Origin: Echinicola strongylocentroti
GTDB lineage: Bacteria > Bacteroidota > Bacteroidia > Cytophagales > Cyclobacteriaceae
NCBI RefSeq assembly: GCF_003260975.1
Contig: NZ_CP030041.1
Span: 62,001 to 126,000, forward strand
Reading direction: 5' to 3'
Length of the DNA stretch: 64,000 nucleotides
Positions 4,634-55,993 of this stretch are shown in pieces. Position 1 is the stretch's first letter, and each line of letters begins with the position of its first letter. The notes beneath the pieces are model-generated. The model had not been told where the DNA came from, did not search any database, and saw only the letters and a list, made by a program, of their open reading frames with translations. The position numbers and the translations under genes are program-made.

Positions 4634-4799
4634 CCCGGAATATGCATTAGCCTATCTATTGCGGTCTGAAACTGCTTCAAAATCAGTTGCTTCGCTGCTG
4701 TTTTCGATTTCACCATAGCGGTGCTATGCCTCAATCTCCAAACAGTCTGATTTTCTTGCAGTTTCAAACCTCATGACGATTCCTAATGCATAAACCGGG
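4634..4799 (-). mobile_element. 166-bp palindromic MITE-like element, copy A1
   Basis: This copy starts CCCGGAATATGCATTAG and ends CTAATGCATAAACCGGG, giving near-perfect terminal inverted repeats. It is flanked by a perfect 5-bp duplication ATTAT (4629-4633 and 4800-4804). The interior is a long imperfect palindrome around GTAG/CTAC-like half-sites. It lies between convergent genes, in opposite orientation to the other copies and the most diverged of them. Confidence 0.75.
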
Positions 4800-4962
4800 A
4801 TTATTGACCTTTGTTCAATAAATAAAGTTCTACTTTGTTGACTTCGAGTAAGTGGCTTATAATCAGCATAGTAAATACTGTCAAGTTAATTAGTTATTCA
4901 GACCATATACTCCGCAGTACCAAGGCAAACTCATCTAGTGTATACCTCGGGTTTAGCCCGGT

Positions 4963-5403
4963 TTACTCTGTTTGAGCAGTTGGGTATCCTTTGTCGATCC
5001 AGTCTGTCTTGATGTTGTTTAGAATGGCCAACAATTTATGCTGATTAAAGCCCAGGTCATTTAGTGCTTTAAATGCAGGCCTCACATTGGGGCATTTTTG
5101 TAACGGGCAGCAACCACAGTAAATGATAATTTCCTGATCTTTGTCCAGCTTCTCCACTCGTTGGATCAATTTATCAATATTCTTTCCATCTTGCCCAGGC
5201 CCAATATCCACAGATCCCTCGATCACCGCTTCCGGTCCCACACTGAGTAAAACAGGGATAGTTTTATCGTCTAAACGCATCTGCTTATTCAGCTCATATG
5301 GAGAGACCATTTGCTTGGCAGTCCAAGGTTCTTTTGTCTGGAAGCCAAAAACACCTATCAAAATTATTAAGGTAGCTAATGCTATTGTTTGCGTATTTTT
5401 CAT
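4963..5403 (-). CDS. rhodanese-like exported protein with Cys cluster
   Basis: A 146-residue protein with an N-terminal hydrophobic segment (about 7-21) acting as signal peptide or anchor. The rest looks rhodanese-like: a strand EIIIYC followed by an active-site-type loop CGCCPLQKCPNVRPAF, then helix KALNDLGF. The loop holds four cysteines (96, 98, 99, 104), more than the single catalytic Cys of classical rhodaneses, so it may bind metal or act as a thiol-redox protein. It stands alone, convergent with the metal-transport operon. Family call moderate; function unknown. Confidence 0.65.
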   Translation of the reverse strand: MKNTQTIALATLIILIGVFGFQTKEPWTAKQMVSPYELNKQMRLDDKTIPVLLSVGPEAVIEGSVDIGPGQDGKNIDKLIQRVEKLDKDQEIIIYCGCCPLQKCPNVRPAFKALNDLGFNQHKLLAILNNIKTDWIDKGYPTAQTE

Positions 5404-5724
5404 GATATAGGTCCGTTATCAGTTGTAAACATACAGTTTCCGTGTGAAAACTGCAAAATCCACTGTGTCTAGATGCCTAGTCCTCCATAACAGTTAATTT
5501 AACCCGAGGATTGGGCAAATAAGGATTGTTTTTTTGTTCTGCATGATTTACCATGTGTTGCTGTAAATACAGCTGCTTGAATTAAATTGATATTTACCAA
5601 TAAAAAATAGACTTAATATATGTTAAAAATATAAAAACATGATTAATACATACCTCATTGGAACAGTCATTGCGTTATATCACCTGAATTGATAAATAGA
5701 TTTGTAACCAAAACCACAGTAACC

Positions 5725-6285
5725 ATGAAAGATCTAAAGAACAAACGTGTCGCAATTCTAGCAACCGATGGGTTTGAAGAAAGCGAATTGACCAGTCCAA
5801 AATTTGCACTTGAAGAAAGTGGCGCCGAAGTAGACATCATATCGCTGGAAGAAGGCAGGATCAGAGGCTGGAAAGATGGCAACTGGAGTTTGGATATTGG
5901 AGTGGACAAGGCCATCACGGAAGCGTATGATGGTGATTATGATGCCTTGGTTTTGCCAGGCGGAGTGATCAACCCGGATAAACTAAGAAGAAACCAAAAG
6001 GCCATTGAATTTGTCCGTTCCTTTTTCAGGACCCATAAGCCTGTAGCGGCTATTTGCCACGGACCTCAGGTGTTGATTGACGCAGAAGCTGTTAGTGGCA
6101 GAAAACTCACTTCTTTCCATTCAATCAAGAAAGACCTGGAAAATGCAGGCGCAAAATGGTTTGATAAAGAAGTGGTAGTAGACCAAGGACTGGTGACCTC
6201 AAGAAGCCCTAGCGATTTGGAAGCTTTCAATAACAAGCTGGTCGAAGAAGTATATGAGGGATCTCATATGCAACAAACCTTATAA
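5725..6285 (+). CDS. PfpI/DJ-1 family type 1 glutamine amidotransferase-like protein
   Basis: A 186-residue cytoplasmic protein of the DJ-1/PfpI superfamily, related to general stress proteins YhbO/PfpI linked to protein and nucleotide deglycation or proteolysis. The nucleophile elbow AICHGPQ (Cys111) and the acidic partner in DGFEESE (18-20) are present. The ATG at 5725 is preferred over an in-frame TTG at 5689 because family homology begins at MKDLKNKRVAILATDGFEE. A terminator follows. It is monocistronic. Confidence 0.9.
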   Translation: MKDLKNKRVAILATDGFEESELTSPKFALEESGAEVDIISLEEGRIRGWKDGNWSLDIGVDKAITEAYDGDYDALVLPGGVINPDKLRRNQKAIEFVRSFFRTHKPVAAICHGPQVLIDAEAVSGRKLTSFHSIKKDLENAGAKWFDKEVVVDQGLVTSRSPSDLEAFNNKLVEEVYEGSHMQQTL

Positions 6286-6304
6286 GAACCACATGTGCAA
6301 CGGG

Positions 6305-6328
6305 AACCCGGAATATGCATCAACCGGG
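6305..6328. repeat. collapsed remnant of MITE family A
   Basis: AACCCGGAATATGCAT is followed at once by CAACCGGG, so left and right ends of the family-A element are joined with almost the whole interior missing. No flanking duplication is visible. It could also be a chance match, since only about 20 bp are involved. Confidence 0.4.
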
Positions 6329-6348
6329 ATAAAAATGTAACTCGTAAA

Positions 6349-6383
6349 GAAGCGTACTCTCCATAAAGGGTACGCTTCTTTTG
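6349..6383 (+). terminator. rho-independent terminator
   Basis: Stem GAAGCGTAC / GTACGCTTC with a 12-nt loop, followed by TTTTGG. It lies about 60 nt behind the PfpI/DJ-1 gene, which it should terminate. Confidence 0.7.
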
Positions 6384-6762
6384 GTTTAGGTGACATGGGC
6401 AAATGACGGATCAAGCGGAAAAGCTAGGTGCTGATAGAACGCTGATGACGCAGATGATTATGATTTGCACTGATTTTTTCTTTAAATGGAAAAGCCAAGT
6501 AGCATAAAAAAAGCCCTGAAAGGGCGTAACACCCTTAGCCATGGGCAACGCCCATGGTGAACATCAAAATAATCTTCTGGTTTTAGCAGCAACCATCTTC
6601 CTAGCGCTTATAAATTCACGCTAAAACCCAATACACACCAATAGCACTTTTTTCAATGATCAGTAGGGAAAGAAACTCAAGTAAGTGTGTCGAAAATTAT
6701 TCCCCAGAAATATTGCTTGGTCCCAGATTGCCATGAAGTATAAGGCATCATTAAACCCGGAG

Positions 6763-7842
6763 TTATTCCAGTTTATTCTTGGTAAAAATGTTGTTTTTTT
6801 CTTCAGCCAAAAGAAAAGCAAAGGGCTTGGTACTTTCGCTTAGCTCAAATATCCTCCTCAAAATCGCCAAACTCGGTATAATGACTATCATACCGGAAAT
6901 CCCCCAAATAGCTCCGCCCAACAACAGTCCAAGCAAGGTGATAAAGGCATTTAAATTGACATTTGCCCCTACGATTTTAGGAGTGAGAAAATTACTCTCG
7001 ACCAACTGGATGATGGTAAATAGAATGACAATGATAAATGGTGAAAACATCGAATCAGAAGTCAACATGGCATAGAAAAAAGGCAAAATAGCCCCCAGAA
7101 AAGGCCCTAAATAAGGAATAATATTCAAAATAGCCGCAAAAAGCCCAAAAAACAAGGCATGCTTGATCCCTAGAATATATAGTGCCCCGGTATTCAATAC
7201 AGCTAAAATGGCCATCACCTTCAATACGCCAATAATATAGCCCTGTACCATTTTTCTAATGTTAAAAATCTCTCCTTTTACTTCATCTTGTTTCTGGTCT
7301 TTAAAAAGCTGTACCAAAAAATAAGTTAAATGACGACGGTAAATCAGCATAAAAAAAACAAACACCGGCGTCAAAACCAGTCCCGTGAGCGAACCAATGG
7401 CGTTGAGCAAAACCGCTTGAATGCTTTGGTCTCCAGTTTGTAAAAAACTCACTATCTGTCCTTTATTGATTCCATTTTCCAGGCCAAGATTCACTCCCAA
7501 TTTATTGGTGAAAAAACCATTCATACTGGCAAAAAACTCATCGGCCCGCTGCCCTACATCACCAAGGTCTTGACTTACCCCTTTGATCTGTAGTACAACG
7601 AGGGTAACAATAGCACCAACAATGATAAGTCCACTGAGCAAAGAAAAAAGTGCACTTAAGGTTTCTGGAACCTTCCATTTTTCAAGTTGCTCACAAAGTG
7701 GTGTCAGCAAGATCGAAAGCAAACCGGCTACCATCAATGGCACAAGTAACTTTTTACCTAAAATCATTATAAAAACGATGGTAATGATCAATAGTAAAAC
7801 AAAAAGTACTCTTAGAAACGTAGGTATATGTAATTTTTGCAT
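6763..7842 (-). CDS. AI-2E family transporter (PerM/YhhT-like permease)
   Basis: A 359-residue inner-membrane protein with about eight hydrophobic segments and the typical central amphipathic region (QIKGVSQDLGDVGQRADEFF) and C-terminal motif PYLGPFLGAILPFFYAML. The family has been linked to autoinducer-2 export and to sodium/proton transport; the substrate is not predictable here. The ATG at 7842 (MQKLHIPTFLRVLF) is chosen. The frame is open further upstream to 8115, but that part is encoded by repeat DNA and has no family match. Confidence 0.88.
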   Translation of the reverse strand: MQKLHIPTFLRVLFVLLLIITIVFIMILGKKLLVPLMVAGLLSILLTPLCEQLEKWKVPETLSALFSLLSGLIIVGAIVTLVVLQIKGVSQDLGDVGQRADEFFASMNGFFTNKLGVNLGLENGINKGQIVSFLQTGDQSIQAVLLNAIGSLTGLVLTPVFVFFMLIYRRHLTYFLVQLFKDQKQDEVKGEIFNIRKMVQGYIIGVLKVMAILAVLNTGALYILGIKHALFFGLFAAILNIIPYLGPFLGAILPFFYAMLTSDSMFSPFIIVILFTIIQLVESNFLTPKIVGANVNLNAFITLLGLLLGGAIWGISGMIVIIPSLAILRRIFELSESTKPFAFLLAEEKNNIFTKNKLE

Positions 7843-7933
7843 AGAATAAATGTATAACTTTAAAAACTTAAAAGTACAATAACAGTGCCTATACCTATTA
7901 TATTTATTTTTTACGTAATTAAAGTCAAAGGTT

Positions 7934-8415
7934 TTATGGTTAACAACATAGGCACATAGAGCACAGCAGTAACCTGTTGTTCCTGCAGCTGTGCTGCGGA
8001 ACCACGAAAATTGAGTTTTTAACTCACCACCACTTATGATAGCTGCTTTTGGGGAGATGCCAAATGTAGTTGAACAACATAGACACATAGGGCACAGTAG
8101 AAAAGGCTGCCACAATTGGCTGCTAGTTGTAAAACCTAAAAAAAATCAGTGAAAATCAGCCTGATCAGCGTTATCGGCGTTCCATCATTAGTCAAAAAAT
8201 CTATGTTTTCTATCTTCCTATGTGGTTAAATACAATACCATCTCCAAGTAATTATTGGTTAACAACATAGACACATAGGGCACAGTAGAAAAGGCTGCCA
8301 CAATTGGCCGCTAGTTGTAAAACCTAAAAAAATCAGTGAAAATCTGCCTGATCAGCGTTATCAGCGTTCCATCATTAGTCAAAAAAACCTATGTTTTCTA
8401 TCTTCCTATGTGGTT
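7934..8415 (+). repeat. family-B repeat cluster (three units)
   Basis: Two nearly full units (8073-8230 and 8259-8415) begin ACAACATAGACACATAGGG and end CCTATGTGGTTA, the ends forming roughly 20-bp imperfect inverted repeats. They share an interior with CTGATCAGCGTTATC. A third, left-end-only copy (7934-8072) has another interior with TGAGTTTTTAACTCA. The same composite order is found at 44.7 kb. ORFs here are repeat-borne and not credible. Confidence 0.75.
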
Positions 8416-8635
8416 ATCAAATAAGTTAGCTGTTTTATGTTACTTTTTCGATGCCTTAGAATCTGGGTTTAATATATGTAGGCGGCCACCAATCCTTCTA
8501 TTGAAGAATAATGGGTAAAAGCTCCATTAATAGTCATCCTCCAATAGGAAATTTATGTAAAAATCATAAAAACGTAACATTATTTAGAACCAAGCTAAGT
8601 TTTGATTAAAATTCTGAAAAACCAGAAATTTGGAT

Positions 8636-8643
8636 TAGTTTTG
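8636..8643 (+). promoter_or_regulatory. -7 box (TAGTTTTG) of the ammonium transporter gene
   Basis: An exact TAnnTTTG match 21 nt before the ATG of the ammonium transporter. A weak TTCTG sits 19 nt upstream as the only -33 candidate. Confidence 0.45.
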
Positions 8644-8664
8644 TAGCCAAATTTTAAAAACACA

Positions 8665-9993
8665 ATGAAGAAAAAGTGGAAAGTCGCCTTCGGGACAATT
8701 ATTTCAGCATCTTTAGCAGGGTTATTTTGGCAAGTAGAAGCTCCAGCAGCAGAAAATTTCGCTTCTGAAGACCAACTGGTTTTTTCGGACATTGCATGGT
8801 TACTGACAGCCTCTTGCCTGGTCCTTCTTATGACCCCAGGGCTGTCGTTATTTTATGGAGGAATGGTCGGCAAAAAGAACCTTATTTCTACCATGCTCCA
8901 AAGTTTTATCTCACTGGGCGTGGTGACCATGGTCTGGACGGTAGTGGGTTTTAGCTTGGCGTTTGGTGATCCCATTGGTATAGAGATCGATGGACAGTTA
9001 TATGGTCTCATCGGGAATCCTTTCCAATACATGTTTTTTGACCAAGTGGGTAAATTGCCCCATTTGACCATTGCCAGCAGTATCCCATTTGTTTTGTTTG
9101 CACTTTTTCAAATGAAATTTGCCGTCATTACCCCAGCGATCATAACAGGATCATTTGCTGAGCGGGTTCGATTTATTGGGTATGTGTTTTTTATAGGGCT
9201 TTTCTGTGTGTTGGTTTATGCACCACTTTGTCACATGGTTTGGCATCCAGATGGATTGATCGGTGCCTATTTTGGTGTATTGGATTTTGCAGGAGGTACG
9301 GTGGTGCACATCAGTGCAGGTTTCGCCTCATTGGCTGGTGCCATGTTCATTGGTAAGCGTCGCAATCAACACCATGCCCCTTCTAATATCACCTACATCA
9401 TGCTGGGAACAGGTATGCTTTGGTTTGGCTGGTTTGGCTTTAACGCTGGCTCTTCCCTAGCGGCCAACGGGACGGCAGCTGTAGCCTTTGCCACCACCAC
9501 TATAAGCTCTGCCACGGCCATGATGACCTGGGTCTTCTTTGACAGGATCCAAGGTCGTAAGATTACCGCCATGGGCGCCTGCATCGGTGCGGTGGTAGGA
9601 CTTGTCGTCATCACCCCTGCGGCTGGCTTCATCACGGTTCCCCAAAGCATGTTCTTCGGGTTTATCGGTGCTATTGTGTCTAATCTGGCCCTATCTGCAA
9701 AGTCATTGAAGAAAATGGACGACACCCTTGATGTATTTGCCTGTCATGGTGTAGGAGGTATTATGGGGATGATTTTGACGGCCATCTTTGCCAGTCCAGA
9801 AGGCTCCAGTTTATTGCATGGCGGTTGGGCAATCTTTGGCTCCCATATGGTGGTACTGGTAGGTGTTTCGGTATTTTCTTTTGTGGTTTCCTACGCCATC
9901 TTCTTTGTGTTGAACAAATTTGTGACCCTAAGGGTCCGTGACGAATACGAGGAAGTCGGATTGGATATCTCCCAACATGGAGAGTCCGCATAA
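8665..9993 (+). CDS. amt: ammonium transporter (Amt family)
   Basis: A 442-residue inner-membrane channel for NH4+/NH3. After an N-terminal signal-like segment (1-30) come eleven membrane spans with hallmark motifs: MTPGLSLFYGGMV, SFAERVRF, FDFAGG-type VLDFAGGTVVHISAG, WFGWFGFNAGS and DVFACHGVGG. The two pore histidines are in TVVHIS and ACHGVGG. Length fits the family. Unlike many amt loci there is no adjacent P-II (glnK) gene, so it is a single-gene unit closed by a terminator. A TAnnTTTG box precedes it. Confidence 0.95.
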   Translation: MKKKWKVAFGTIISASLAGLFWQVEAPAAENFASEDQLVFSDIAWLLTASCLVLLMTPGLSLFYGGMVGKKNLISTMLQSFISLGVVTMVWTVVGFSLAFGDPIGIEIDGQLYGLIGNPFQYMFFDQVGKLPHLTIASSIPFVLFALFQMKFAVITPAIITGSFAERVRFIGYVFFIGLFCVLVYAPLCHMVWHPDGLIGAYFGVLDFAGGTVVHISAGFASLAGAMFIGKRRNQHHAPSNITYIMLGTGMLWFGWFGFNAGSSLAANGTAAVAFATTTISSATAMMTWVFFDRIQGRKITAMGACIGAVVGLVVITPAAGFITVPQSMFFGFIGAIVSNLALSAKSLKKMDDTLDVFACHGVGGIMGMILTAIFASPEGSSLLHGGWAIFGSHMVVLVGVSVFSFVVSYAIFFVLNKFVTLRVRDEYEEVGLDISQHGESA

Positions 9994-10024
9994 GGGCATT
10001 TTAACTTGGTAATAAAGCATTTAA

Positions 10025-10190
10025 CCCGGATTATGCGTTAGGAATCGTAGTGAGAGCTGAAATTGCAAGAAAATCAGTTAGTTTGGAGGCATTAGCGTAG
10101 CACCGCTACGGTTATGCCGAAAACTAAAGTGAAACGGCTGATTTTGAAGCAGTTTAAGGTCGCAGCAGATAGGCTAATGCATATTCCGGG
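10025..10190 (+). mobile_element. 166-bp palindromic MITE-like element, copy A2
   Basis: It runs from CCCGGATTATGCGTTAGG to CCTAATGCATATTCCGGG-type ends and is flanked by the perfect 5-bp duplication TTTAA (10020-10024, 10191-10195). Inside, GAAATTGCAAGAAAATCAG pairs with CTGATTTTGAAGCAGTTT, and CGTAGCACCGCTACG forms the central hairpin. Confidence 0.82.
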
Positions 10191-10193
10191 TTT

Positions 10194-10226
10194 AAAGGTC
10201 ACCTGGCAAGAAGGGTGACCTTTTTT
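10194..10226 (+). terminator. rho-independent terminator behind amt
   Basis: Stem AAAGGTCACC / GGTGACCTTT with a 10-nt loop and a T-run. Copy A2 of the MITE sits between the amt stop codon and this terminator. Confidence 0.75.
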
Positions 10227-10316
10227 AATGGAAAAGCACACCAAAACAATTTGTTTATAAAACTTGGCTACGTGCACGATTCAGGAGACTCATTTTAATG
10301 GAATAAAAAAAACAAC

Positions 10317-11729: not shown

Positions 11730-11773
11730 AGGGTTATTATAGGTGGTTACATGCTACTCTAGCAATAATTTAT

Positions 11774-11939
11774 CCCGGATTATGCGTTAGGAATCGTAGT
11801 GAGAGCTGAAATTGCAAGAAAATCAGTTAGTTTGGAGGCATTAACGTAGCATCGCTACGGTTATGCCGAAAACTAAAGTGAAACGGCTGATTTTGAAGCA
11901 GTTTCAGGTCGCAACAGATAGGCTAATGCATATTCCGGG
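11774..11939 (+). mobile_element. 166-bp palindromic MITE-like element, copy A3
   Basis: Nearly identical to copy A2 and flanked by the perfect 5-bp duplication TTTAT (11769-11773 and 11940-11944). One point difference changes the central half-site to GTAGCATCGCTAC, which keeps the hairpin arms. Confidence 0.82.
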
Positions 11940-11982
11940 TTTATACAATATTCTATCATTCATGATGGTCCAGCATGGATAA

Positions 11983-12363
11983 TCAACCTAAAACATGCCG
12001 TGCTAGTACTTTCTGCACATCATAAACATTGACCGATTTATTGAACTTCTTCACCATTGATGGCTGCTGCTCACCAGAGATCCAGATTTTGAGTTCTGCA
12101 TCCAGGTCAAAGGTCCCGGCAGTCTCGATGCTAAACCTTGTGATGCTTTTATAGGTGATGGATTTGTATTCCACTTTTTTACCCGTCAAGCCCTGTTTGT
12201 CCACCAGAATCAATCGTTTACTGGTAAAAATAAAGGTATCACGTATCAACTTAAACCCAATCTCTAGCTCTTCCCCATCAATCAACAACTGACCGTAATC
12301 GGCTCGAAGTTTCTCAGGTTCTACGGCTCCAGCATTGCCGAGCAGCGATGAAAATATTCCCAT
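11983..12363 (-). CDS. bacterial PH-domain protein
   Basis: A 126-residue cytoplasmic protein resembling the bacterial pleckstrin-homology group (YvbH/YokE-like, PF08000). It shows the run of alternating strands LRDTFIFTSKRLILVDKQG and KKVEYKSITYKSITRFSIETAG, followed by a C-terminal helix (DVQKVLARHVLG). No signal peptide or membrane segment. The family has no defined role; some members are stress-induced. No operon partner. Confidence 0.82.
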   Translation of the reverse strand: MGIFSSLLGNAGAVEPEKLRADYGQLLIDGEELEIGFKLIRDTFIFTSKRLILVDKQGLTGKKVEYKSITYKSITRFSIETAGTFDLDAELKIWISGEQQPSMVKKFNKSVNVYDVQKVLARHVLG

Positions 12364-12603
12364 AACGTATGATTTTTATTTCTTTCTAAATTACTGCCGT
12401 CCGAGTAAATTACGAAGATGAATATTATGCCCTCCAATTTTGATTTGGAAGGCTTTTTTATTGTGAGTCAAAAAGTACCCCTATCCGGAAAGGAACAATT
12501 CAGTTTGTATATTTTGAAGGTCCTTTTGAAATATACTTTTAAAGTAAGCTTCCGAATGAAGCAGAAACCTTTCCAGACTAATATAAGAAGATAAATTTTT
12601 TAC
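12364..12603. other. gene-free interval
   Basis: A plus-strand hairpin GCCCTCCAA/TTGGAAGGC with a T-run near 12430-12462 looks like a terminator, but no plus-strand gene precedes it. Nothing else recognisable. Confidence 0.3.
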
Positions 12604-12723
12604 ACCACCATCACCACAGTAGAAAAATCCTCGGCTTCTTTTATCCTTTTATGGAGAACTGTAAACAGCAGGTTGAGAATCAAAGCTGTCCAGATCTGGA
12701 TTTTTATCCCGTTCTCGCTGTCC
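12604..12723 (-). pseudogene. C-terminal remnant of an IS4-type transposase
   Basis: Read on the minus strand, an open frame gives TDSENGIKIQIWTALILNLL followed by FTVLHKRIKEAEDFSTVV and a stop. This resembles the C-terminal helix region of IS4-family transposases of Bacteroidota (usually ENxIKxQIWxALI). No catalytic DDE residues, start codon or terminal repeat remain. It abuts the broken GIY-YIG fragment at about 12723, so the insertion sequence probably truncated that gene. Confidence 0.55.
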
Positions 12724-12826
12724 GTATGGTGGTTATGTTGCCCCACCTTTTGGTCAAATTCTCGGTATAAACGATATAAAACCTATCTATTTTTTGTGAA
12801 TGTATAATATAAATCCAGAACATCAT
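12724..12826 (-). pseudogene. 5' remnant of a third GIY-YIG gene
   Basis: This matches the first third of the two GIY-YIG genes that follow (MMFW.YII.SQKIDRFYI), with substitutions including GIY-YIG loop changes, and stops abruptly where transposase-like sequence begins. The same tRNA-terminator segment lies upstream of it as in the intact units. Confidence 0.7.
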
Positions 12827-12831
12827 CCAAT

Positions 12832-12858
12832 AAAAAAGGCAACCGATTTACGGTTGCC
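12832..12858 (-). terminator. tRNA-Thr-type terminator, copy 1
   Basis: Stem GGCAACCG / CGGTTGCC with a 5-nt loop; on the minus strand it is followed by TTTTTTATTGG. It directly follows the 3' end of the broken tRNA copy. Confidence 0.7.
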
Positions 12859-12861
12859 AAG

Positions 12862-12945
<84 letters not shown>

Positions 12946-12946
12946 T

Positions 12947-13240
12947 TTAGCTCCCGCTATAACGCATTTTTAACTTATTTGAAATTTCCGGATATTTTCG
13001 GAGATTATCTAAATACGTTCTTGATTTACATTTTTTGAGATGCCCTTCTATCCCGATAGCTTGCTTTTCGCCGGAACATTCAATGGTATAAAAGAATTGC
13101 CAATCCGCTGCTCTATTGGTAAACGCGTCCTTAAAAGTATGGTGGTTATGTTGCTCCAACCTTTTGGTCAAATTCTCGGTATAACCGATATAAAACCTGT
13201 CTATTTTTTGTGAATATATAATATAAACCCAGAACATCAT
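12947..13240 (-). CDS. GIY-YIG domain protein (copy 1)
   Basis: A 97-residue single-domain protein of the UPF0213/YhbQ-like GIY-YIG nuclease group. The two signature halves read VYIIYS and FYIGYTENL, followed by the conserved Arg (KRLEQH), a Glu-containing helix (ECSGEKQAIGIEGHLKK) and NLRKYPEI. Such stand-alone domains are often annotated as endonucleases, but their role is unclear. The stop codon lies 1 nt before the 5' end of a broken tRNA-Thr copy. It differs from copy 2 by a single residue (Ile/Thr), so the duplication is recent. Confidence 0.82.
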   Translation of the reverse strand: MMFWVYIIYSQKIDRFYIGYTENLTKRLEQHNHHTFKDAFTNRAADWQFFYTIECSGEKQAIGIEGHLKKCKSRTYLDNLRKYPEISNKLKMRYSGS

Positions 13241-13245
13241 CCAAT

Positions 13246-13272
13246 AAAAAAGGCAACCGATTTACGGTTGCC
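13246..13272 (-). terminator. tRNA-Thr-type terminator, copy 2
   Basis: Same GGCAACCG/CGGTTGCC hairpin and U-tract as copy 1, exactly 414 bp further on. Confidence 0.7.
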
Positions 13273-13275
13273 AAG

Positions 13276-13359
<84 letters not shown>

Positions 13360-13360
13360 T

Positions 13361-13654
13361 TTAGCTCCCGCTATAACGCATTTTTAACTTATTTGAAATT
13401 TCCGGATATTTTCGGAGATTATCTAAATACGTTCTTGATTTACATTTTTTGAGATGCCCTTCTATCCCGGTAGCTTGCTTCTCACCAGAACATTCAATGG
13501 TATAAAAGAATTGCCAATCCGCTGCTCTATTGGTAAACGCGTCCTTAAAAGTATGGTGGTTATGTTGCTCCAACCTTTTGGTTAAATTCTCGGTATAACC
13601 GATATAAAACCTGTCTATTTTTTGTGAATATATAATATAAACCCAGAACATCAT
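13361..13654 (-). CDS. GIY-YIG domain protein (copy 2)
   Basis: A 97-residue near-duplicate of copy 1 (only Ile to Thr in GEKQATGIEG), 414 bp away. The same GIY-YIG halves, Arg and Glu residues are present. It lies between an intact tRNA-Thr (13690-13762, upstream in transcription) and a disrupted one (13276-13359, downstream); the terminator after the intact tRNA separates it from that transcript, so it probably needs its own promoter, for which no clear TAnnTTTG box was found. Confidence 0.82.
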   Translation of the reverse strand: MMFWVYIIYSQKIDRFYIGYTENLTKRLEQHNHHTFKDAFTNRAADWQFFYTIECSGEKQATGIEGHLKKCKSRTYLDNLRKYPEISNKLKMRYSGS

Positions 13655-13659
13655 CCAAT

Positions 13660-13686
13660 AAAAAAGGCAACCGATTTACGGTTGCC
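13660..13686 (-). terminator. terminator of intact tRNA-Thr
   Basis: GGCAACCG/CGGTTGCC hairpin with U-tract, 3 nt beyond the 3' end of the tRNA at 13690-13762. Confidence 0.75.
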
Positions 13687-13689
13687 AAG

Positions 13690-14140
<451 letters not shown>

Positions 14141-38363: not shown

Positions 38364-38376
38364 ATTATCCCGGATT

Positions 38377-38849
38377 CAATGCCGTTTAGTTAAGGGCATT
38401 TCCTTCTTTTCATATACCTAAAAGTCCTTTTTTTGATTGACTTTGGCTGGGGAAACCTGATCATCTTGGTGGATTTTATCCTTTTCCTTTTTTCCATTGA
38501 TGAAAAAAGAAAGAAAAAAATCTAGGCCGGTGGTATGCCCTTTAAAATGGGACATGGATTTACCCTGCGACCGAGATCCGTCACCCATTTTAATTTCCAC
38601 CCGATGGCTACGGCCTAAAAGAATGTTGGCTGCTAAAAAGGAGGAGTTTGCCTGCATGAGGGGAGGTTTTAATTTTAGGCCAATAGATGCACAGCGGCGG
38701 GGTTTTTTGGTTACTTTTTTGACCTGAAGCAAAAAAGTAACAAAGGTAAAGGGATGAAAAACACCTAGGAATTTAGCTAGAAAAATAACTGCCCAAGGAA
38801 AAAATATAGAACCCATATTTTCCAGATACACACTAACTAAACGGCATTG
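38377..38849. mobile_element. 473-bp MITE-like element with 10-bp target duplication
   Basis: It has perfect 16-bp terminal inverted repeats (CAATGCCGTTTAGTTA) and is flanked by the 10-bp direct repeat ATCCCGGATT (38367-38376 and 38850-38859). The target is the left end of family-A copy A4. Inside is a perfect 12-bp hairpin GTTACTTTTTTG / CAAAAAAGTAAC (38710-38741) and no credible gene. A 10-bp duplication suits mobilisation by an IS4-type transposase (inference). Confidence 0.75.
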
Positions 38850-38851
38850 AT

Positions 38852-39016
38852 CCCGGATTATGCGTTAGGAATCGTAGTGAGAGCTGAAATTGCAAGAAAA
38901 TCAGTTAGTTTGGAGGCATTAGCGTAGCACCGCTACGGTTATGCCGAAAACTAAAGTGAAACGGCTTATTTTGAAGCAGTTAAGGTCGCAACAGATAGGC
39001 TAATGCATATTCCGGG
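38852..39016 (+). mobile_element. palindromic MITE-like element, copy A4
   Basis: Nearly identical to A2 and A3, one base shorter. Its left end carries the 473-bp element. The outer flanks (ATTAT on the left of that insertion, TTTAA on the right) do not match, unlike the other copies, so this copy may be recombined. Confidence 0.75.
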
Positions 39017-44666: not shown

Positions 44667-45900
44667 GTTAACAACATAGGCACATAGGGCACAATAGGAA
44701 CCTGTTGTTCTCCTGTTGTTCCAGCAGCTGTGCTGCGGAACCACGAAAAGTGAGTTTTTAACTCACCTCCACTTTCAGAGCTGCTCTTGGGAAGATGGTT
44801 TGGGGTTAGCCAAATTTATTTGAACAACATAGACACATAGGGCACAGTAGGAATGACTTCCACGATTGGCTGTTTGTTGTAAAACTAAAAAAATCAGTGA
44901 CCATCTGCCTGATCAGCGTTATCAGCGTTCCATCAGTAGTCAAAAAAACTATGTTTTCTATCTGCCTATGTGGTTAAATACTATTCTTTAGAGCATGATG
45001 TAGTTGAACAACATAGACACATAGGGCACAGTAGAAAAGGCTGCCGCAATTGGCTGCTAGTTGTAAAACCTAAAAAAATCAATGACCATCTGCCTGATCA
45101 GCGTTATCGGCGTTCCATCATTAATCAAAAAACCTATGTTTTCTATCTGCCTATGTGGTTAAATACTATTCTTTAGAGCATGATGTTGTTGAACAACATA
45201 GGCACATAGGGCACAGTAGGAATGACTTCCACGATTGCCTTTTTGTTGTGAAACTAAAAAAATCAGTAATCATCTGCCTGATCAGCGTTATCGGCGTTCC
45301 ATCATTAGTCAAAAAACCTATGTTTTCTATCTGCCTATGTGGTTAAATACTATTCTTTAGAGCATGATGTAGTTGAACAACATAGACACATAGGGCACAG
45401 TAGAATTGACTTCCACAATTGCCTGTTTGTTGTGAAACTAAAAAAAATCAGCGTCCATCTGCCTGATCAGCGTTATCGGCGTTCCATCAGTAGTCAAAAA
45501 AACTATGTTTTCTATCTGCCTATGTGGTTAAATACTATTCTTTAGAGCATGATGTTGTTGAACAACATAGACACATAGGGCACAGTAGAAAAGGCTGCCG
45601 CAATTGCCTGCTAGTTGTAAAACCTAAAAAAATCAGTGACCATCTGCCTGATCAGCGTTATCAGCGTTCCATCATTAATCAAAAAACCTATGTTTTCTAT
45701 CTGCCTATGTGGTTAAATACTATTCTTTAGAGCATGATGTTGTTGAACAACATAGACACATAGGGCACAGTAGAATTGACTTCCACAATTGCCTATTTGT
45801 TGTGAAACTAAAAAAAAATCAGCGTCCATCTGCCTGATCAGCGTTATCGGCGTTCCATCAGTAGTCAAAAAACCTATGTTTTCTATCTGCCTATGTGGTT
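44667..45900 (+). repeat. family-B tandem array, six units plus a composite leader
   Basis: Six units start at about 44821, 45005, 45190, 45374, 45559 and 45744 (period 184-185 bp). Each begins TGAACAACATAGACACATAG, holds CTGATCAGCGTTATC, and ends CTATCTGCCTATGTGGTT; a 27-bp spacer TACTATTCTTTAGAGCATGATG joins units 1 to 6. The leader (44667-44820) matches that at 7934-8072. Small ORFs in it (HDVVEQHRHIGHSR) recur with the period and are not genes. Confidence 0.88.
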
Positions 45901-46008
45901 ATCAAATAAGTTAGTTGTTTTACGTTACTTTTTCTATGGTTTGGAATCAGGGAAAAATCATTATTTCACTTTGTTTTTGGTTTTACCGCAAATCACTAAC
46001 TTTCCTGT
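45901..46008. other. shared right flank of family-B clusters
   Basis: ATCAAATAAGTTAGTTGTTTTACGTTACTTTTTC resembles the flank after 8415 and the sequence after 63850, so the repeat's right boundary includes this tail. Confidence 0.5.
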
Positions 46009-50026: not shown

Positions 50027-50479
50027 ATTAATTTTTGGTTCATTTAATTTTCTACAAATAAACGTAGGCGGTATTCACCTTGGATACAAACAAGCGTTTC
50101 GTCAAATAACGAAGGTACATAATTTTCAAATACTAACCATTTTTTATAACTAGTTACAATTGCCCTTTCATTAAAAAACCTTCCTATTTTACTGGTTTAC
50201 AGCATTTGTCAATTATTAATGGTGATTTTTACTGATGAAGAAAAAACCTGAACTGACCCAATTTAAGTTTCTATTGTCATTTTAAATTAACTTCTAAAAA
50301 AAAGCATGAATGATATGGCAAAACGAATATTTTATAACATATTAGGTAGAGGTAATAGTTTAGTGTGTACAATAGGGATATAAAAACCTTCTTTTCACCA
50401 TGTAGCTTTAATTCCTCAGATCACTTAAAACCATTCAAAAGATTCTTCCAAGGGATTGTTTGTATAACGTAAGATTTGA
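50027..50479. other. divergent intergenic region
   Basis: Between the sulfatase and the histidine kinase. AT-rich. A 25-codon frame (MNDMAKRIF...) was seen but has no support. No clear TAnnTTTG box within range of either start. Confidence 0.3.
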
Positions 50480-51619
50480 ATGCAGGAAAACAACTTTAAT
50501 AACTATTCCAATTCGGATAAATTGAAACTCTTATCGCTAGTTAGTCATGAGATACGAACGCCTCTACATGGTATCATCGGACTAACTGAGCAACTTCAGG
50601 ATACCACACTTAATGAAGAACAGACAGGTCTGGTCGAGCACCTCATTCATACTGAAAGAATCCTTATGAACCTGATCAATGATGTACTCGATTATTCCAA
50701 ACTCAAAAATTCAGCATTTGACATCAGACTTAAGCCTGCTAGTCTTGTGGGGATCTTAGAAGAGATAAGAACATTATTTGCTCCCTTGGCTGCACAAAAA
50801 GGATTAGCCCTGAATACAAAAATAAATATCATTTCAGAATACGTTTTGGTGGATATCCTACGGGTAAAACAAGTCCTTTCCAACCTGATCAATAATGCCC
50901 TGAAATTCACCGACAAAGGATCCATTACCCTACTCTGTAACCAACTCACCCCTATCGATGATAGCTCCGCACATTCTTACCGGTTTGCTGTCGAAGACAC
51001 TGGGACGGGGATACCAAAAGGCAAAGAGAACAGTATCTTCGAAGCTTACGGACAGGCCACCGCAGCCAATGACCGAAATGGAACAGGCTTAGGATTGACA
51101 ATTTCCAATATGATCCTAAACAATATGAACAGTCATTTGCAACTGGCGAATCCTTCTGATGGAACCAAAGGTGCCATTTTTTATTTTGAGCTGACATTGG
51201 ATCAGACCTCAGCCCCACCAAAAACAAAGAAGAAACAGTTAACTCATGAGTTTGCGGGAAAACATGCGCTATTGGTAGACGATGACCCACTGGTCCAACA
51301 GATTACTGCCTCGATGCTATGTAAAGAGGAAATTGATGTAGCCACGGTATCGTCCATCGACGAAGCATTGATAAGAGTGAAACAGACCAACCCCGAACTC
51401 ATCTTTATTGACTTGGAATTGGGAGATCAAAATGGGGCAGATTTACTGTCGGATATAAAAAACAACATTGCTGATCCCGGACATCTCATTTGTATGACGG
51501 CTTCAGAAAACAGCAAATCTGAAATCCTACACCTGGGTTTTGAGGCTGTTTTGCGGAAGCCATTTAACCGAAGGGCCTTGGCCAGAGTGCTCTCAAACTT
51601 GTCACAACCCCCCCAGTAA
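50480..51619 (+). CDS. soluble hybrid histidine kinase (HisKA-HATPase-receiver)
   Basis: A 379-residue cytoplasmic hybrid kinase without any input domain or membrane span. HisKA holds the phospho-His in VSHEIRTPLHG (H23); the HATPase has N-box LINNALKFT, G1 DTGTGIP and G2 GTGLGLTIS. The receiver (about 260-375) has acidic cluster VDDDP, phosphoacceptor D311 in IFIDLELGD and conserved Lys in RKPF. With no sensor or output of its own, signal and partner must come from elsewhere; no response regulator or kinase gene is next to it. Confidence 0.92.
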   Translation: MQENNFNNYSNSDKLKLLSLVSHEIRTPLHGIIGLTEQLQDTTLNEEQTGLVEHLIHTERILMNLINDVLDYSKLKNSAFDIRLKPASLVGILEEIRTLFAPLAAQKGLALNTKINIISEYVLVDILRVKQVLSNLINNALKFTDKGSITLLCNQLTPIDDSSAHSYRFAVEDTGTGIPKGKENSIFEAYGQATAANDRNGTGLGLTISNMILNNMNSHLQLANPSDGTKGAIFYFELTLDQTSAPPKTKKKQLTHEFAGKHALLVDDDPLVQQITASMLCKEEIDVATVSSIDEALIRVKQTNPELIFIDLELGDQNGADLLSDIKNNIADPGHLICMTASENSKSEILHLGFEAVLRKPFNRRALARVLSNLSQPPQ

Positions 51620-51681
51620 ATAACGAATCCTAATTAATGAATTGGCAAAGGCCTCATTTGCTTGTACTTTTGTGGCATTGA

Positions 51682-51725
51682 CAAAAAAATCCCCGCCAGA
51701 TTACTCTTTTAGTAAGCTAGCGGGG
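51682..51725 (-). terminator. terminator of the DUF4198 gene
   Basis: Minus-strand stem CCCCGC / GCGGGG enclosing an inner TTACT/AGTAA hairpin, followed by ATTTTTTT. It ends the TonB receptor - DUF6686-like - DUF4198 run. Confidence 0.65.
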
Positions 51726-51760
51726 TTGCTATTAGTCAGTCAGATAAAAAAATTACAAAC

Positions 51761-52474
51761 CTATTTTTGAATACTTTGTGTGGCACAGCGCCAGATAAAT
51801 TTATAGGGAGCCCCAAAATGCTCACCGGAAGTTTCTTCCGTATCCACAGCCTCTACAATGTATTGGCCTTCCCAAGGTGTTTCCACAGTGATTTCTCCAT
51901 TGACATCTGTGGTGTATTCCTTTGACCAGCCCGTAGGGCCATCCACTGCCACGGTTACGCCTTCTTTTGCTTCTCCCTTGAACAAGACTTTGTAATGAAG
52001 AGGTTTTTTGAGTCCTCCTTTATCAGGAGAAGTCATCACCAATGCCAGATCGGTTTTGGGACCTTCTACTGAAGTTTCTTTCACTTTCCCCACCCATACT
52101 TGAGATGCGGTATTGAACTGGTAAACATATTCTCCACCAAGGTCTTTGGCAGAATGGCCAATTTGAAGACGATAAACACCGTCCATGCTTGGTGTAAAGC
52201 TAGCGGTAAAATGATCTGAAGAAGGTGACGTCTCCAAAAGCGTCTTCTCTCCTTGTGGGTCGATCAGCCATAGCTCAAATTCTTTTACGTCAGAGTACCA
52301 ATCATCCACTTCTTCGATGACTCCTTCGCCATATTCACCATAATAGATTTTCACTTGTTGTTCCTTGCCTTTTTTACCGGCCACTGCTGTTTCGATCCAC
52401 AGGGCATGCGCCATGGCCATTCCAAGATTGGCAAACAATGCCAAGGCAACTAATACACTAAATTTCGTTTTCAT
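51761..52474 (-). CDS. DUF4198 domain exported protein
   Basis: A 237-residue periplasmic protein (signal peptide 1-22, ending AMAHA). The mature start HALWIET is typical of DUF4198, a family related to periplasmic nickel/cobalt-transport components (CbiK/NikK-like), with a FELWLIDPQGEKTLL repeat and an Ig-like C-terminal domain (VTVAVDGPTGW... DVNGEITVETPWEG). The N-terminal His of the mature protein may be a metal ligand. Downstream of the TonB receptor on the same strand; likely metal-uptake related. Confidence 0.85.
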   Translation of the reverse strand: MKTKFSVLVALALFANLGMAMAHALWIETAVAGKKGKEQQVKIYYGEYGEGVIEEVDDWYSDVKEFELWLIDPQGEKTLLETSPSSDHFTASFTPSMDGVYRLQIGHSAKDLGGEYVYQFNTASQVWVGKVKETSVEGPKTDLALVMTSPDKGGLKKPLHYKVLFKGEAKEGVTVAVDGPTGWSKEYTTDVNGEITVETPWEGQYIVEAVDTEETSGEHFGAPYKFIWRCATQSIQK

Positions 52475-52491
52475 CGTTTTGATTGTCTTAA

Positions 52492-52845
52492 TTAGTTATT
52501 TAATAAATCATCAATCTGAAGCTGCATCTGAGCTTCTCCCAAACAGCTTTTGAGTCTATAAAACTCCTCCTCCATCAGGGTAAACTGGATATCCATGTGG
52601 TATGTCTCAATGACGACCCTGTCCACTCCATCATAAAATGGACTGTGGTCTCCCTCAAAAGACAAGTCATCAATGTATCTACAAAAACCACTAAAGTCCA
52701 CTTTGCTAAAACTCAGCATGCACTGACAGTACATCATGCCTATCCGGCCGCAATGTTCGCACCTGGTCAGGATAAAATCATCTTTCATCATGATGACCTC
52801 CGGATTACAATAGTTCATGCCATTTTCAGTTTGATAAAAATCCAA
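52492..52845 (-). CDS. DUF6686-like small Cys-containing protein
   Basis: A 117-residue cytoplasmic protein resembling the DUF6686 group of Bacteroidota. The motif CEHCGRIGMMYCQCML holds four Cys (C..C and C.C pairs) like a metal-binding knuckle, followed by a strand/helix part YHMDIQFTLMEEEFYRLKSCL. It lies 17 nt before the DUF4198 gene and downstream of the TonB receptor, so a role in metal homeostasis is suggested, not shown. Two other in-frame Met codons (residues 9, 19) could be starts. Confidence 0.65.
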   Translation of the reverse strand: MDFYQTENGMNYCNPEVIMMKDDFILTRCEHCGRIGMMYCQCMLSFSKVDFSGFCRYIDDLSFEGDHSPFYDGVDRVVIETYHMDIQFTLMEEEFYRLKSCLGEAQMQLQIDDLLNN

Positions 52846-52962
52846 TTGGTGCCTGTTATGGAGACGTTCACAAGTTACTTAGCTGTCACCCGATTGCGCA
52901 GAACATAACCACACAGGACTTAATTTCTTTTACAATATCTATATATAAACCATGGCATTTGT

Positions 52963-52997
52963 CTGTCCTTTCAGGCATTCGCTGCCTGAAAGGACAG
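52963..52997. other. perfect 15-bp stem-loop without U-tract
   Basis: CTGTCCTTTCAGGCA and its exact complement flank a 5-nt loop, 12 nt beyond the TonB receptor stop. Neither strand has a U-run, so it is more likely an mRNA-stabilising or processing hairpin than a classic terminator. Confidence 0.5.
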
Positions 52998-53008
52998 GTA
53001 CCATAAAT

Positions 53009-55372
53009 CTAGAATTTAAAGCCAACACTCAAACGGGCATTCCTTGGTGCTTCTGCCTGATAGTAATAATAGGCGGCATAAGCAGATCCTGAATAGAGGT
53101 ACTCGTTCAAGAGATTAAATACATTGGCGCGAATGGTCAGGTTGTCATTTTCCCATGATACCCCACCGTCTAGCTTAAAGTAATTGGGAAGAGCCAATTG
53201 ATTATCACCCGGCCAGTTCCAAGTGCTTCGGTCGCCCATAAAGGTAAATCCACCAGAGATGCCAAAACCTTTTAACGTCCCATTTTGGACAGAGTAGGTT
53301 AGCCAAGCATTGGCCACATGCTTGGAAAAGCCAGGTACTAAATCACCAATTCGGTCTTCGTCTATATCCTCTGTGATCTCAGAGTCCGTATAGGCGTAAT
53401 TTGCAGTAAGTATCAGTCCTTGGGTAATTTCCCCACGAGCATCAAACTCAACACCTTGCGTTCTAGTTTGTCCAAGCTGCAAGGAATATTGGCCAACATC
53501 AGTGGGATCTGATGGATCCTGTGGATCTTGAACCAACTGATTGTTCTTAAGAATTCTATACAACGAGATACCGGTACTCCATTTTCCATCGAATAGATTC
53601 CTCTTTACGCCAAACTCAATATTATTCCCAGTAATTGGCTTCACGTCGCCTCCATTTCTCAGCTGACCCGTCTGAGGTACAAATGATTGGTCAAAAAGCC
53701 CATAAGCAGAAGTATTTTCATCAAAGGAATAGCTAAGCCCTACCCGAGGGGTAACTTGGCTTTCTTCCATTTTACTTCCCGTATTGTCCTGGGTCACAAA
53801 AGTATACCTCCCAGCCAAAGTCAATCGAAGGTCATTATCAAAAAATCCAAGCTCATCTTGAATATAGACACCAGAATATGATTGGTTATAATAGGTAGTA
53901 TTTAACCTTTCTTTTAAGGGTTTACTTCGATCAAAATTTGGCAATCCATTCGGGGGATTTCCATAAGATGGATTTTCCATATCGAACAGATCATCAGGGG
54001 TGTCCAATTCATGCGATTGGCTAAAGTCTGCTAAGTACTCTTTGGACCCCATATCAAGACCCGCTAGTATTTTATGATTGATAAATCCTGTTTCAATTTC
54101 CCCATTTACATAAAACTGGCCATAAACACTTTCCATGGCTGCATCCCAAATACCTGCATAACGAAGCAATTCGGAACCTTCAATCGCATTGATCCAAAGT
54201 GAACTCCCTTCCTGATTGAAGTTGAAATAAGAAATTTGACCTGTTAGCTTCCAATTGTCGTTTATCTTGTGTTGCAAGTTTGCAGTAATGTTATGGTCAT
54301 CTATTTTGGTTGGCTCCAATCTAGGATCTCCCACGGTGAAGCTTTGGTCATAAATACCATAACCTTCTGTAGAAAACACATAGGCAGACCCCACATTGGA
54401 CATATTCACATGCTGATAAATATATTCAAGAGTAAGCGTGGTTTTTTCATCCAGTTGGTAGCTCAATACTGGAGCTACACTATACCTGTCCGTGTAGGTA
54501 TATTCTTGAAAGGAATTTTGGCTCTGCCCCATCACATTCAGACGATAAAGGAGTTTACCATCCTTGCTCAATTTACCGTCCAGGTCAAGTGTTCCTCTGT
54601 ACAAGTCATAGCTCCCCATGGTTAAGTTTACTTCCCCGTGAGACACTCCAGTCGGTTTTTTGGTCACGACATTGTAAATACCACTAGGCTCGCCATTGGA
54701 CATCATAAATCCGGCTGGCCCTTTTACGAACTCGATAGTCTCTACGAAACTCATATCTTCATTCAAGGGACCCCATCTAGACGTAACATTCATGCCATTT
54801 CTGAAAGCTCCAGCACGAGATCCGCGCATATTTACACGGGCATATAGATTTCCCCAGTGCTCCAAACGGGTAGCACCACTTACATTTCTCAATACTCCAT
54901 CGCTCATATCGATTACCTGCTGATCTTTTAGTGCCTGCGATGTGATCACCTGAATGTTTTGCGGTACTTCGATCAATTCCTCATTTAAGCGAAGACTTAC
55001 TGAAGGCTCATCCACCTTATATTCACTCCTTTCACCTGTAACGGTAACTTCTCCCAGTTCGGATTCTGTTTCTTTTAGCGTAATGGTGCCAAGTGCGGTG
55101 GACTGTCCATTGCGCACAGTGAGGCGCTTATGCACTGTGCTGTGGCCTACAGCAGAAATGTCCAAGGTATAGCTTCCAGCAGGAGCCGAAAATTCAAAGT
55201 GTCCATCATCACCGGAAGCTGCTCCATAGGAGGTTCCTTTCAGAATTACGGATGCGTAAGGCAGGCCATTGCCTGAATCATCTTTTACATATCCATTGAT
55301 AGTTCCTGTGGATTGGGCCATGACCAATTGGCCCATCCCGAATAAAATCAATACAAGTACAATTTGTTTCAT
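53009..55372 (-). CDS. TonB-dependent siderophore receptor
   Basis: A 787-residue outer-membrane receptor. Signal peptide (1-19), carboxypeptidase-regulatory-like domain (about 20-105; GTINGYVKDDSGNGLPYASV), plug (120-235; IEVPQNIQVITSQALKDQQV, VEFVKGPAGFM..GEPSGIYNVVTKKPTG) and a 22-strand barrel ending in ARLSVGFKF. The plug wording is of the siderophore-receptor type (TIGR01783-like). It is followed by DUF6686-like and DUF4198 genes. A TACTTTTG box and a 15-bp palindrome lie upstream, suggesting iron repression. Confidence 0.93.
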   Translation of the reverse strand: MKQIVLVLILFGMGQLVMAQSTGTINGYVKDDSGNGLPYASVILKGTSYGAASGDDGHFEFSAPAGSYTLDISAVGHSTVHKRLTVRNGQSTALGTITLKETESELGEVTVTGERSEYKVDEPSVSLRLNEELIEVPQNIQVITSQALKDQQVIDMSDGVLRNVSGATRLEHWGNLYARVNMRGSRAGAFRNGMNVTSRWGPLNEDMSFVETIEFVKGPAGFMMSNGEPSGIYNVVTKKPTGVSHGEVNLTMGSYDLYRGTLDLDGKLSKDGKLLYRLNVMGQSQNSFQEYTYTDRYSVAPVLSYQLDEKTTLTLEYIYQHVNMSNVGSAYVFSTEGYGIYDQSFTVGDPRLEPTKIDDHNITANLQHKINDNWKLTGQISYFNFNQEGSSLWINAIEGSELLRYAGIWDAAMESVYGQFYVNGEIETGFINHKILAGLDMGSKEYLADFSQSHELDTPDDLFDMENPSYGNPPNGLPNFDRSKPLKERLNTTYYNQSYSGVYIQDELGFFDNDLRLTLAGRYTFVTQDNTGSKMEESQVTPRVGLSYSFDENTSAYGLFDQSFVPQTGQLRNGGDVKPITGNNIEFGVKRNLFDGKWSTGISLYRILKNNQLVQDPQDPSDPTDVGQYSLQLGQTRTQGVEFDARGEITQGLILTANYAYTDSEITEDIDEDRIGDLVPGFSKHVANAWLTYSVQNGTLKGFGISGGFTFMGDRSTWNWPGDNQLALPNYFKLDGGVSWENDNLTIRANVFNLLNEYLYSGSAYAAYYYYQAEAPRNARLSVGFKF

Positions 55373-55402
55373 TTGTCTTATTTAGATTAAGTTTAATTAA
55401 GA

Positions 55403-55410
55403 CAAAAGTA
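55403..55410 (-). promoter_or_regulatory. -7 box (TACTTTTG) of the TonB receptor gene
   Basis: An exact TAnnTTTG match on the minus strand, 31 nt before the receptor ATG; a TTTAG -33 candidate lies about 19 nt upstream. Confidence 0.5.
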
Positions 55411-55428
55411 AGCCCGAAAATGATAACA

Positions 55429-55443
55429 TCTAAATTATTTAGA
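55429..55443 (-). promoter_or_regulatory. candidate Fur-type operator
   Basis: Palindrome TCTAAAT-T-ATTTAGA (7-bp arms) overlapping the -33 region of the receptor promoter. An A/T-rich palindrome placed there fits a repressor site such as Fur or a DtxR-type regulator (inference). Confidence 0.4.
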
Positions 55444-55809
55444 ATGATTTTAAATTTATTTTGTCTATCGTTTTTTAAATAAGATTGGTAAAACTTATAA
55501 TCCTTCTGGTGTTTTAAAACCTGATTTTTTTTTATGTGTACAAGTCCTGCGGATGAATCCGCAGGTTACTAAATTCATCGTGCCGCTGGCACTTTACCGC
55601 AGTATGTACATTAGGAATAGCAGCAGCCTGTCCTGAAAGCTTTCGGGGGCAAAAGTAGGAAAGTCCAATAAAGCATAGGAAATTAAATTCGATAGGAACA
55701 GCAGATATATTCAAACTGGGATACTTTTTTAAATGCGTTCGCCCGGGAGACACATCTATTTATTAAGCTTTAATTCCATTCATTATCAGTAAAAAAATTA
55801 TTTCTTAAA
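55444..55809. other. gene-free interval with short hairpins
   Basis: Contains the perfect inverted repeat CCTGCGGATGAATCCGCAGG (around 55546-55565) and GTGCCGCTGGCAC, of the kind common in dispersed intergenic repeats. The 73-codon minus frame here is not credible. Confidence 0.4.
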
Positions 55810-55993
55810 CCCGGATTATGCGTTAGGAATCGTAGTGAGAGCTGAAATTGCAAGAAAATCAGTTAGTTTGGAGGCATTAGCGTAGCACCGCTACGGTTAT
55901 GCCGAAAACTAAAGTGAAACGGCTGATTTTGAAGCAGTTTCAGGTCGCAACACCTGTGCGCCGTGGCGTAGATAGGCTAATGCATATTCCGGG
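55810..55993 (+). mobile_element. palindromic MITE-like element, copy A5 with 18-bp insertion
   Basis: 184 bp with the family-A ends, flanked by the perfect 5-bp duplication TTAAA (55805-55809, 55994-55998). It differs by an extra CCTGTGCGCCGTGGCGTA in its right arm, which accounts for the length difference. Confidence 0.82.

Follow-up and report, generated by a model that had tools for sequence, protein, structure and literature searches.

A palindromic MITE family of Echinicola strongylocentroti and related bacteria with ends shared by IS1380-family insertion sequences and a hairpin kept by compensatory changes

The window analysed here, that is, the whole stretch of 64,000 nucleotides of Echinicola strongylocentroti DNA, contains five copies of a palindromic MITE with 5' CCCGG and 3' CCGGG ends, the first of them in opposite orientation to the other four (Table 1). 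All five were recovered with the coordinates and lengths claimed in a preliminary description of this DNA, as were the perfect direct repeats that it listed for four of them. The lack of an internal gene was likewise borne out, no ORF of at least 80 aa overlapping any of the five copies, and the inverted-repeat ends were found as CCCGGAWTATGC at one end and GCATAATCCGGG or GCATATTCCGGG at the other in 33 of the 35 copies listed, the other two being off by one base. The copy at 10025-10190 follows the stop codon of an ammonium-transporter gene (8665-9993) and precedes a hairpin that, by eye, is terminator-like. The domain content of the host DNA includes Por secretion tail and TonB-dependent receptor, which, like the named relatives of the IS described below, suggests Bacteroidota. 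Other repeats in the window are a sequence of about 320 bp (6408-6723) present at many other genomic sites with about 84-90% identity, several of them adjoining MITEs; a tandem array of 185-bp units (44812-45901) with further copies at 8064-8416 and 61678-61857; and a duplicated tRNA-Thr region (12742-14140) with 414-bp repeats, two intact genes and two degenerate tRNA-like copies.

Table 1. Positions of MITE copies, associated segments and the intact IS1380 element (coordinates refer to the window unless a locus handle, L, is given)
Feature	Location	Strand	Description
MITE copy 1	4634..4799	-	166 bp; target duplication ATTAT at 4629-4633 and 4800-4804
MITE remnant	6307..6328	.	22 bp; both MITE ends (CCCGGAATATGC..CCGGG); interior gone; no duplication
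MITE copy 2	10025..10190	+	166 bp; target duplication TTTAA at 10020-10024 and 10191-10195
MITE copy 3	11774..11939	+	166 bp; target duplication TTTAT
E2 segment	38377..38849	.	473 bp; inverted ends CAATGCCGTTTAGTTA; joined to MITE copy 4
MITE copy 4	38852..39016	+	165 bp; one composite end; no own duplication
MITE copy 5	55810..55993	+	184-bp subtype; 18-bp insert near 55952-55969; target duplication TTAAA
Composite MITE+E2 units	window 38369-39016; L003, L016, L237, L247, L255, L256, L275, L282		about 0.65-1.0 kb
Intact IS1380 element	L074 1376-2778 (congener G004)		seems to interrupt a heavy-metal-transporting ATPase gene (by eye, from flanking ORF text)

In the home genome (G000; 6.25 Mb, single contig) the first 23 bases of the element are matched exactly at 103 sites, 60 forward and 43 reverse, and a reversed control pattern had no match. 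Twenty stretches of 20 kb, sampled at even spacing and fixed before inspection, contained 10 full and 8 partial copies, from which about 156 full and 280 total copies can be extrapolated; the density in the window (5 in 64 kb) is above the genome average. The copies studied further were drawn from the window, 30 best-match loci, the even sample and 60 more exact-end sites, which gave 110 distinct hits including 103 full copies, a non-random set biased to young copies. Among these, 71 measure exactly 166 bp, 22 measure 184 bp and 10 fall elsewhere between 141 and 190 bp; three overlap an ORF called by a simple predictor by more than 20 bp. Their split between replication strands is about 51:52 by a hand count from bins with an approximate boundary, and their orientation to 3'-facing genes is evenly divided (sense:antisense 59:59). 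The claimed proximity of all copies to gene 3' ends is not a genome-wide preference: with the same simple predictor, the median distance from 3' ends is 126.5 bp (n=118) and that from 5' ends 138 bp (n=76). Remnants of 22, 39 and 60 bp that retain both MITE ends were also seen (window 6307-6328; L065, L066, L068), one of which (L066) still has its TTTAA duplication; these look like palindrome deletions.

The preliminary description had taken the element for a recently active, non-autonomous mobile element and had proposed a genome-wide examination of flanks for 5-bp duplications and of relatives for empty sites. Such duplications are abundant: with partial copies excluded (8 in the even sample; 7 of the 110 distinct hits), 79 of the 103 home copies have a perfect 5-bp duplication and 22 more match at four of five bases, so that 101 of 103 reach 4/5 or better, as compared to a mean of 33.3 and a maximum of 49 perfect pairs in 10,000 trials in which left and right flanks were randomly re-paired. 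The perfect repeats are mostly TTTAA (39), TTAAA (30) and TTGAA (5), followed by TTAAT (2) and three singles, indicating that the target is TTNAA-like. Perfect duplications also flank 21 of 24 copies in the congener G006 and 20 of 22 in genome G009; 24 copies from 19 other genomes of the same family comprise 13 with a perfect 5-bp duplication and 4 more with a perfect 4-bp repeat. An empty orthologous site was found for the copy at 10025: the congener G003 reads GCATATAAAGATCACC, with a single copy of the target, where the window reads GCATTTAA, the element and TTTAAAGGTCACC, and G004 and G006 likewise lack the element at this site. The flanks of the copies at 4634 and 11774 were not alignable in congeners, so these gave no empty-site reading. 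Taken together, the home-genome duplications, the empty site and the duplications in other species show that the element is mobile; judging from its flanks, the element is inserted with 5-bp duplication at TTNAA-like targets, and it has multiplied in bursts in several species.

The distribution of the element was surveyed with a covariance model made from 33 elements of 12 genomes. At E <= 0.001 and with strict filters, it was detected in 69 of 245 genomes of the same family, representing 35 of 84 genera, with match lengths mostly of 157-170 bp or 184-189 bp among the matches listed. A phylum-wide draw of 395 genomes gave 5 with a match; 2 of these belong to other families, with matches of 120 and 70 nt. 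This breadth within one family is unusual. All 24 full-length copies taken from the 19 other genomes measure 163-167 bp, although they were selected by a model that favours that length.

The near-complete fold-back described earlier is evident in the full-length copy at 11774, which forms one long imperfect hairpin well below shuffled sequences (RNA fold -76.1 kcal/mol, z = -10.8; DNA fold z = -9.4). In the alignment of the 33 sequences, both sides have changed in 26 of 47 pairs and 95.2% of cells pair, as compared to 84.3% after shuffling; covariation amounts to 0.376, a value that 0 of 500 shuffles reached (0.172) and that falls to 0.05-0.07 in slid alignments, these shuffles leaving relatedness in place. 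The 24 sequences from the 19 other genomes, which were outside model building and, having been found by the model, lean to its structure, gave concordant figures: double changes in 24 of 33 pairs, pairing of 92.0% vs 78.9% and covariation of 0.445 vs 0.193. Based on these alignments, compensatory changes preserve the hairpin. The preliminary description had regarded compensatory changes in a conserved RNA gene as an argument against a mobile element; the compensatory changes are indeed there and the mobility still stands, evidencing that a mobile element and a conserved fold are not mutually exclusive, and the MITE reading is retained. A curated Rfam RNA family was ruled out, since no Rfam covariance model matched the MITE copies.

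The strand concerned by this conservation was addressed with consensus folds and wobble pairs. RNAalifold gave -43.6 for the plus strand and -4.9 for the complement of the 33 sequences, and -19.2 and -7.8, respectively, for the 24 other sequences. A first count of changes (57:12), made on plus-strand RNAalifold pairs, was dropped due to a biased choice of pairs, and a strand-symmetric set was used instead, based on Watson-Crick agreement only, in which 57 of 58 pairs are the same from either strand. Between lineages, changes from Watson-Crick to G-U outnumber those from Watson-Crick to A-C by 62 to 17 in this set; 31 pair columns favour G-U vs 7 that favour A-C (sign p 0.0001), and internal branches give 20:4. 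The corresponding ratio among singletons of four recent bursts is 17:16, which differs from that between lineages (Fisher p 0.006; p 0.02 with a stricter pair set, 49:15). As the G-U excess is observed from GC (27:8) as well as AU (35:9) starting pairs, a C>T bias alone is insufficient to explain it. The 24 other sequences taken alone gave 43:27, which is not significant (binomial p 0.07; Fisher vs baseline p 0.39), and neither is the 25:9 obtained for pairs predicted from both strands of the 33 (p 0.08 vs baseline); the combined wobble count is 104:37 (p 0.02 vs baseline).

On these observations, selection at the RNA level is likely in the home genus and possible elsewhere; as a part of the general explanation, selection on the RNA fold of one strand has about an even chance of being correct. 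The balanced 59:59 orientation makes a fixed role in neighbouring mRNAs unlikely and speaks against the element simply working through mRNA wherever it is inserted; the constraint is probably exerted on the small number of copies from which new bursts arise. By extension, the success of this DNA-transposed MITE could hinge on the folding of its plus-strand transcript, with lineages ceasing to multiply once that fold is lost, so that a gene-less parasite would be selected as a structured RNA family-wide, a proposal that is advanced tentatively and that we consider somewhat doubtful. By setting recent mutations against persistent ones, it can be tested directly if MITE hairpins are RNA-selected or passive relics, and the sign of RNA-level selection in this family is testable.

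Arm-to-arm correction is a property of quasi-palindromes, and it would produce double changes as well. The element may be a plain decayed-transposon MITE, with a palindrome inherited from its origin and matching changes that reflect DNA-level correction between arms by template switching and not selection, an explanation of appreciable, if less than even, probability. The both-end remnants of 22, 39 and 60 bp, which suggest DNA-level deletion of the palindrome, and the weakness of the wobble bias in other genomes are in agreement with it. Yet arm correction is strand-blind, whereas the persistent changes favour G-U over A-C, both in total and by pair column, and the recent singletons do not; in addition, length is held within 163-167 bp in every one of the model-picked full-length copies from other genomes.

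For many prokaryotic MITEs the partner remains unidentified. The parent transposase of this element had been placed outside the window, and an insertion sequence with the same ends was sought by searching 12 genomes for the MITE-end pattern followed by non-MITE sequence. The match was an IS1380-family element in the congener G004, which was also reached by a Pfam search: it is 1403 bp long, encodes a 440-aa transposase (NF033539 transpos_IS1380, 259.7 bits; cut-off 180) and is flanked by TTCAA on both sides. Its right end, CCCGGATTATGCATTAG, matches the consensus of the 33 MITEs at that end without a difference over 17 nt, and the left end of the MITE agrees with the left or right end of the IS at 16-18 of 23 bases in every pairing. 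Relatives with the same type of end occur in Algoriphagus algorifonticola (95%) and other Bacteroidota records. Seven IS copies had both flanks (that of G004 and six from named records), with a perfect 5-bp duplication in 2, a 4/5 match in 4 and a 1/5 match in 1. On the evidence of these ends, IS1380 is the partner family of the MITE.

Within the home genome only fragments of IS1380 were encountered, revealed by a protein query and the NCBIfam profile. One is a relic consisting of a 36-residue transposase C-terminus (69% identity) with a CCCGAATTATGCATTAG end, which adjoins a MITE; the second (G000:C1:137005-137418) scored 53.6 bits with NF033539, below the cut-off, and matched the G004 transposase in tblastn over 17 residues only (E 0.87). 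A search of this genome with the PF13701 profile gave no match. The family cut-off was exceeded in 1 of the 11 genomes of the genus (G004) and by no transposase in G000, G006 or G009, each of them a single-contig, burst-carrying genome, meaning that the enzyme at work does not show up alongside the copies. Of 11 IS1380-positive genomes of the same family, 6 were MITE-positive, 3 negative and 2 not among the genomes listed, and there is no clear association between the presence of both elements.

These three genomes without IS1380 above the cut-off would fit mobilization by another resident transposase, the likeness to IS1380 ends being coincidental, and a multi-copy 411-aa transposase with weak similarity to the IS1380 profile does exist in G006, G004 and G003. 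The comparison covered IS1380 and this 411-aa element, which was set aside as mobiliser because CCCGG ends were lacking at the three loci examined (L084, L093, L094). Conversely, the IS1380 of G004 shares both the 17-nt end and the type of target, and a relic with such an end is present in the home genome, which renders a different transposase quite improbable. One copy of the 411-aa element in G006 is more than 99% identical to one in G004.

That the copies are instead a host family of structured non-coding RNA genes (regulatory RNA or 3' UTR element) spread by duplication and not by transposition, as strong covariation, a stable fold and wide presence in one family might suggest, is extremely unlikely given the copy-by-copy target duplications, the site at 10025 empty in G003, G004 and G006, the IS-like ends, the lack of orientation preference to neighbour genes and the absence of an Rfam match.

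Altogether, the evidence suggests that this MITE is very probably a gene-less element moved by the IS1380 transposase. According to the model proposed here, an IS1380 transposase acting in trans would recognise the shared CCCGGAWTATGCRTTAG-like ends, as suggested by ends and target in common, and the element would be inserted at 5-bp TTNAA-like targets with duplication of the target, the latter as read from the sequence. Since IS1380 is represented by fragments only at home, the copies there are probably stranded or reliant on an occasional incoming IS. In lineages still multiplying, compensatory mutation maintains the near full-length imperfect hairpin; selection may see the RNA of one strand, as the wobble pattern indicates, and the fold may keep read-through transcripts tolerable or stable.

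Ends of this kind also appear in larger units. The missing duplication of the copy at 38852 is explained by its junction, as one composite end, with a second segment, E2, of which 15 complete copies were found, with 391-840 bp between inverted ends CAATGCCGTTTAGTTA and a longest reading frame of 137 aa (three copies inspected). E2 directly abuts a MITE in 11 of the 15, and also at L264, where a single E2 end is in view; at L108 it adjoins the IS1380 relic in place of a MITE. Both outer ends were located for 10 joined units, 8 of which have perfect 5-bp duplications; of the other two, L027 has four matching bases of five and the unit in the window three (outer flanks ATTAT and TTTAA); the perfectly duplicated whole composites span 934-1012 bp. 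Among scored matches, nearly full-length E2 is present in G000 and G006 and pieces of it in the other nine congeners, and an Rfam search of the E2 composite gave no match. The composite unit is an example of such ends capturing and moving other DNA.

As a kind of element, the MITE is already known, and the family is new as far as the searches show. REP/BIME elements are not known to have a target duplication; with a length of mostly 166 bp and 5-bp duplications, the present element is not one of them, in keeping with the preliminary description. Tn3-type TIMEs have 38-bp ends that begin with GGGG, and a Tn3-derived TIME was ruled out, the MITE ends beginning with CCCGG. REP/BIME palindromes measure 20-40 bp, according to the available part of PMC3733652. 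Within the open-access literature, ISfinder and subscription journals being outside its scope, the portions of papers at hand held no MITE tied to IS1380; a review on MITEs (PMC10969869) makes no mention of IS1380, Bacteroidetes or Bacteroidota. In a non-exhaustive literature search, the Bacteroidota MITE papers among the matches listed, as far as their available text goes, concern Porphyromonas and Cardinium, and the accessible text of the matches listed held nothing relevant on a MITE or ERIC with compensatory changes.

Several known elements resemble this family in part. ERIC/IRU, NEMIS/Correia and YPAL/RU-2 are likewise multi-copy elements of 100-200 bp with long stem-loop transcripts, and the accessible section of a review describes cleavage of NEMIS by RNase III and, for ERIC, mRNA destabilisation that depends on orientation, a precedent for RNA effects of MITEs (PMC2229807). 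Correia and ERIC termini are TA in that section (PMC2229807), whereas this MITE differs from ERIC, NEMIS and YPAL in its sequence, CCCGG ends, IS1380 partner and 5-bp TTNAA-like duplications. MITECca01 of Cardinium, an endosymbiont of the Amoebophilaceae, is, in the excerpt available, also an IS-derived MITE with surviving parental elements, but it is related to the IS982 family and exclusive to one strain, as opposed to the many genera found here (PMC9769881). MITEPye1 shares the non-autonomous nature, TIRs, direct repeats and long stem-loop, and differs, in the text at hand, in being IS1182-related with 1-3 chromosomal copies (PMC11578231). TIMEs are non-autonomous as well and have TIRs and direct repeats, and mosaic transposons incorporate miniature elements; in the part of the source available, they are Tn3-related (PMC4133298). 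A likeness is also seen to the IS1380 insertion sequences of the Algoriphagus/Bacteroidota clade, with CCCGGATTATGC..TTAG-type ends and TTNAA-type targets, and the 5-bp duplication is shared by the MITE and the G004 IS1380 copy; unlike them, the MITE carries no transposase, and its imperfect-hairpin interior is not seen in the 1403-bp IS sequence. For this MITE family, a partner family has been found along with the target and one empty site, and members occur in 35 of the 84 genera searched.
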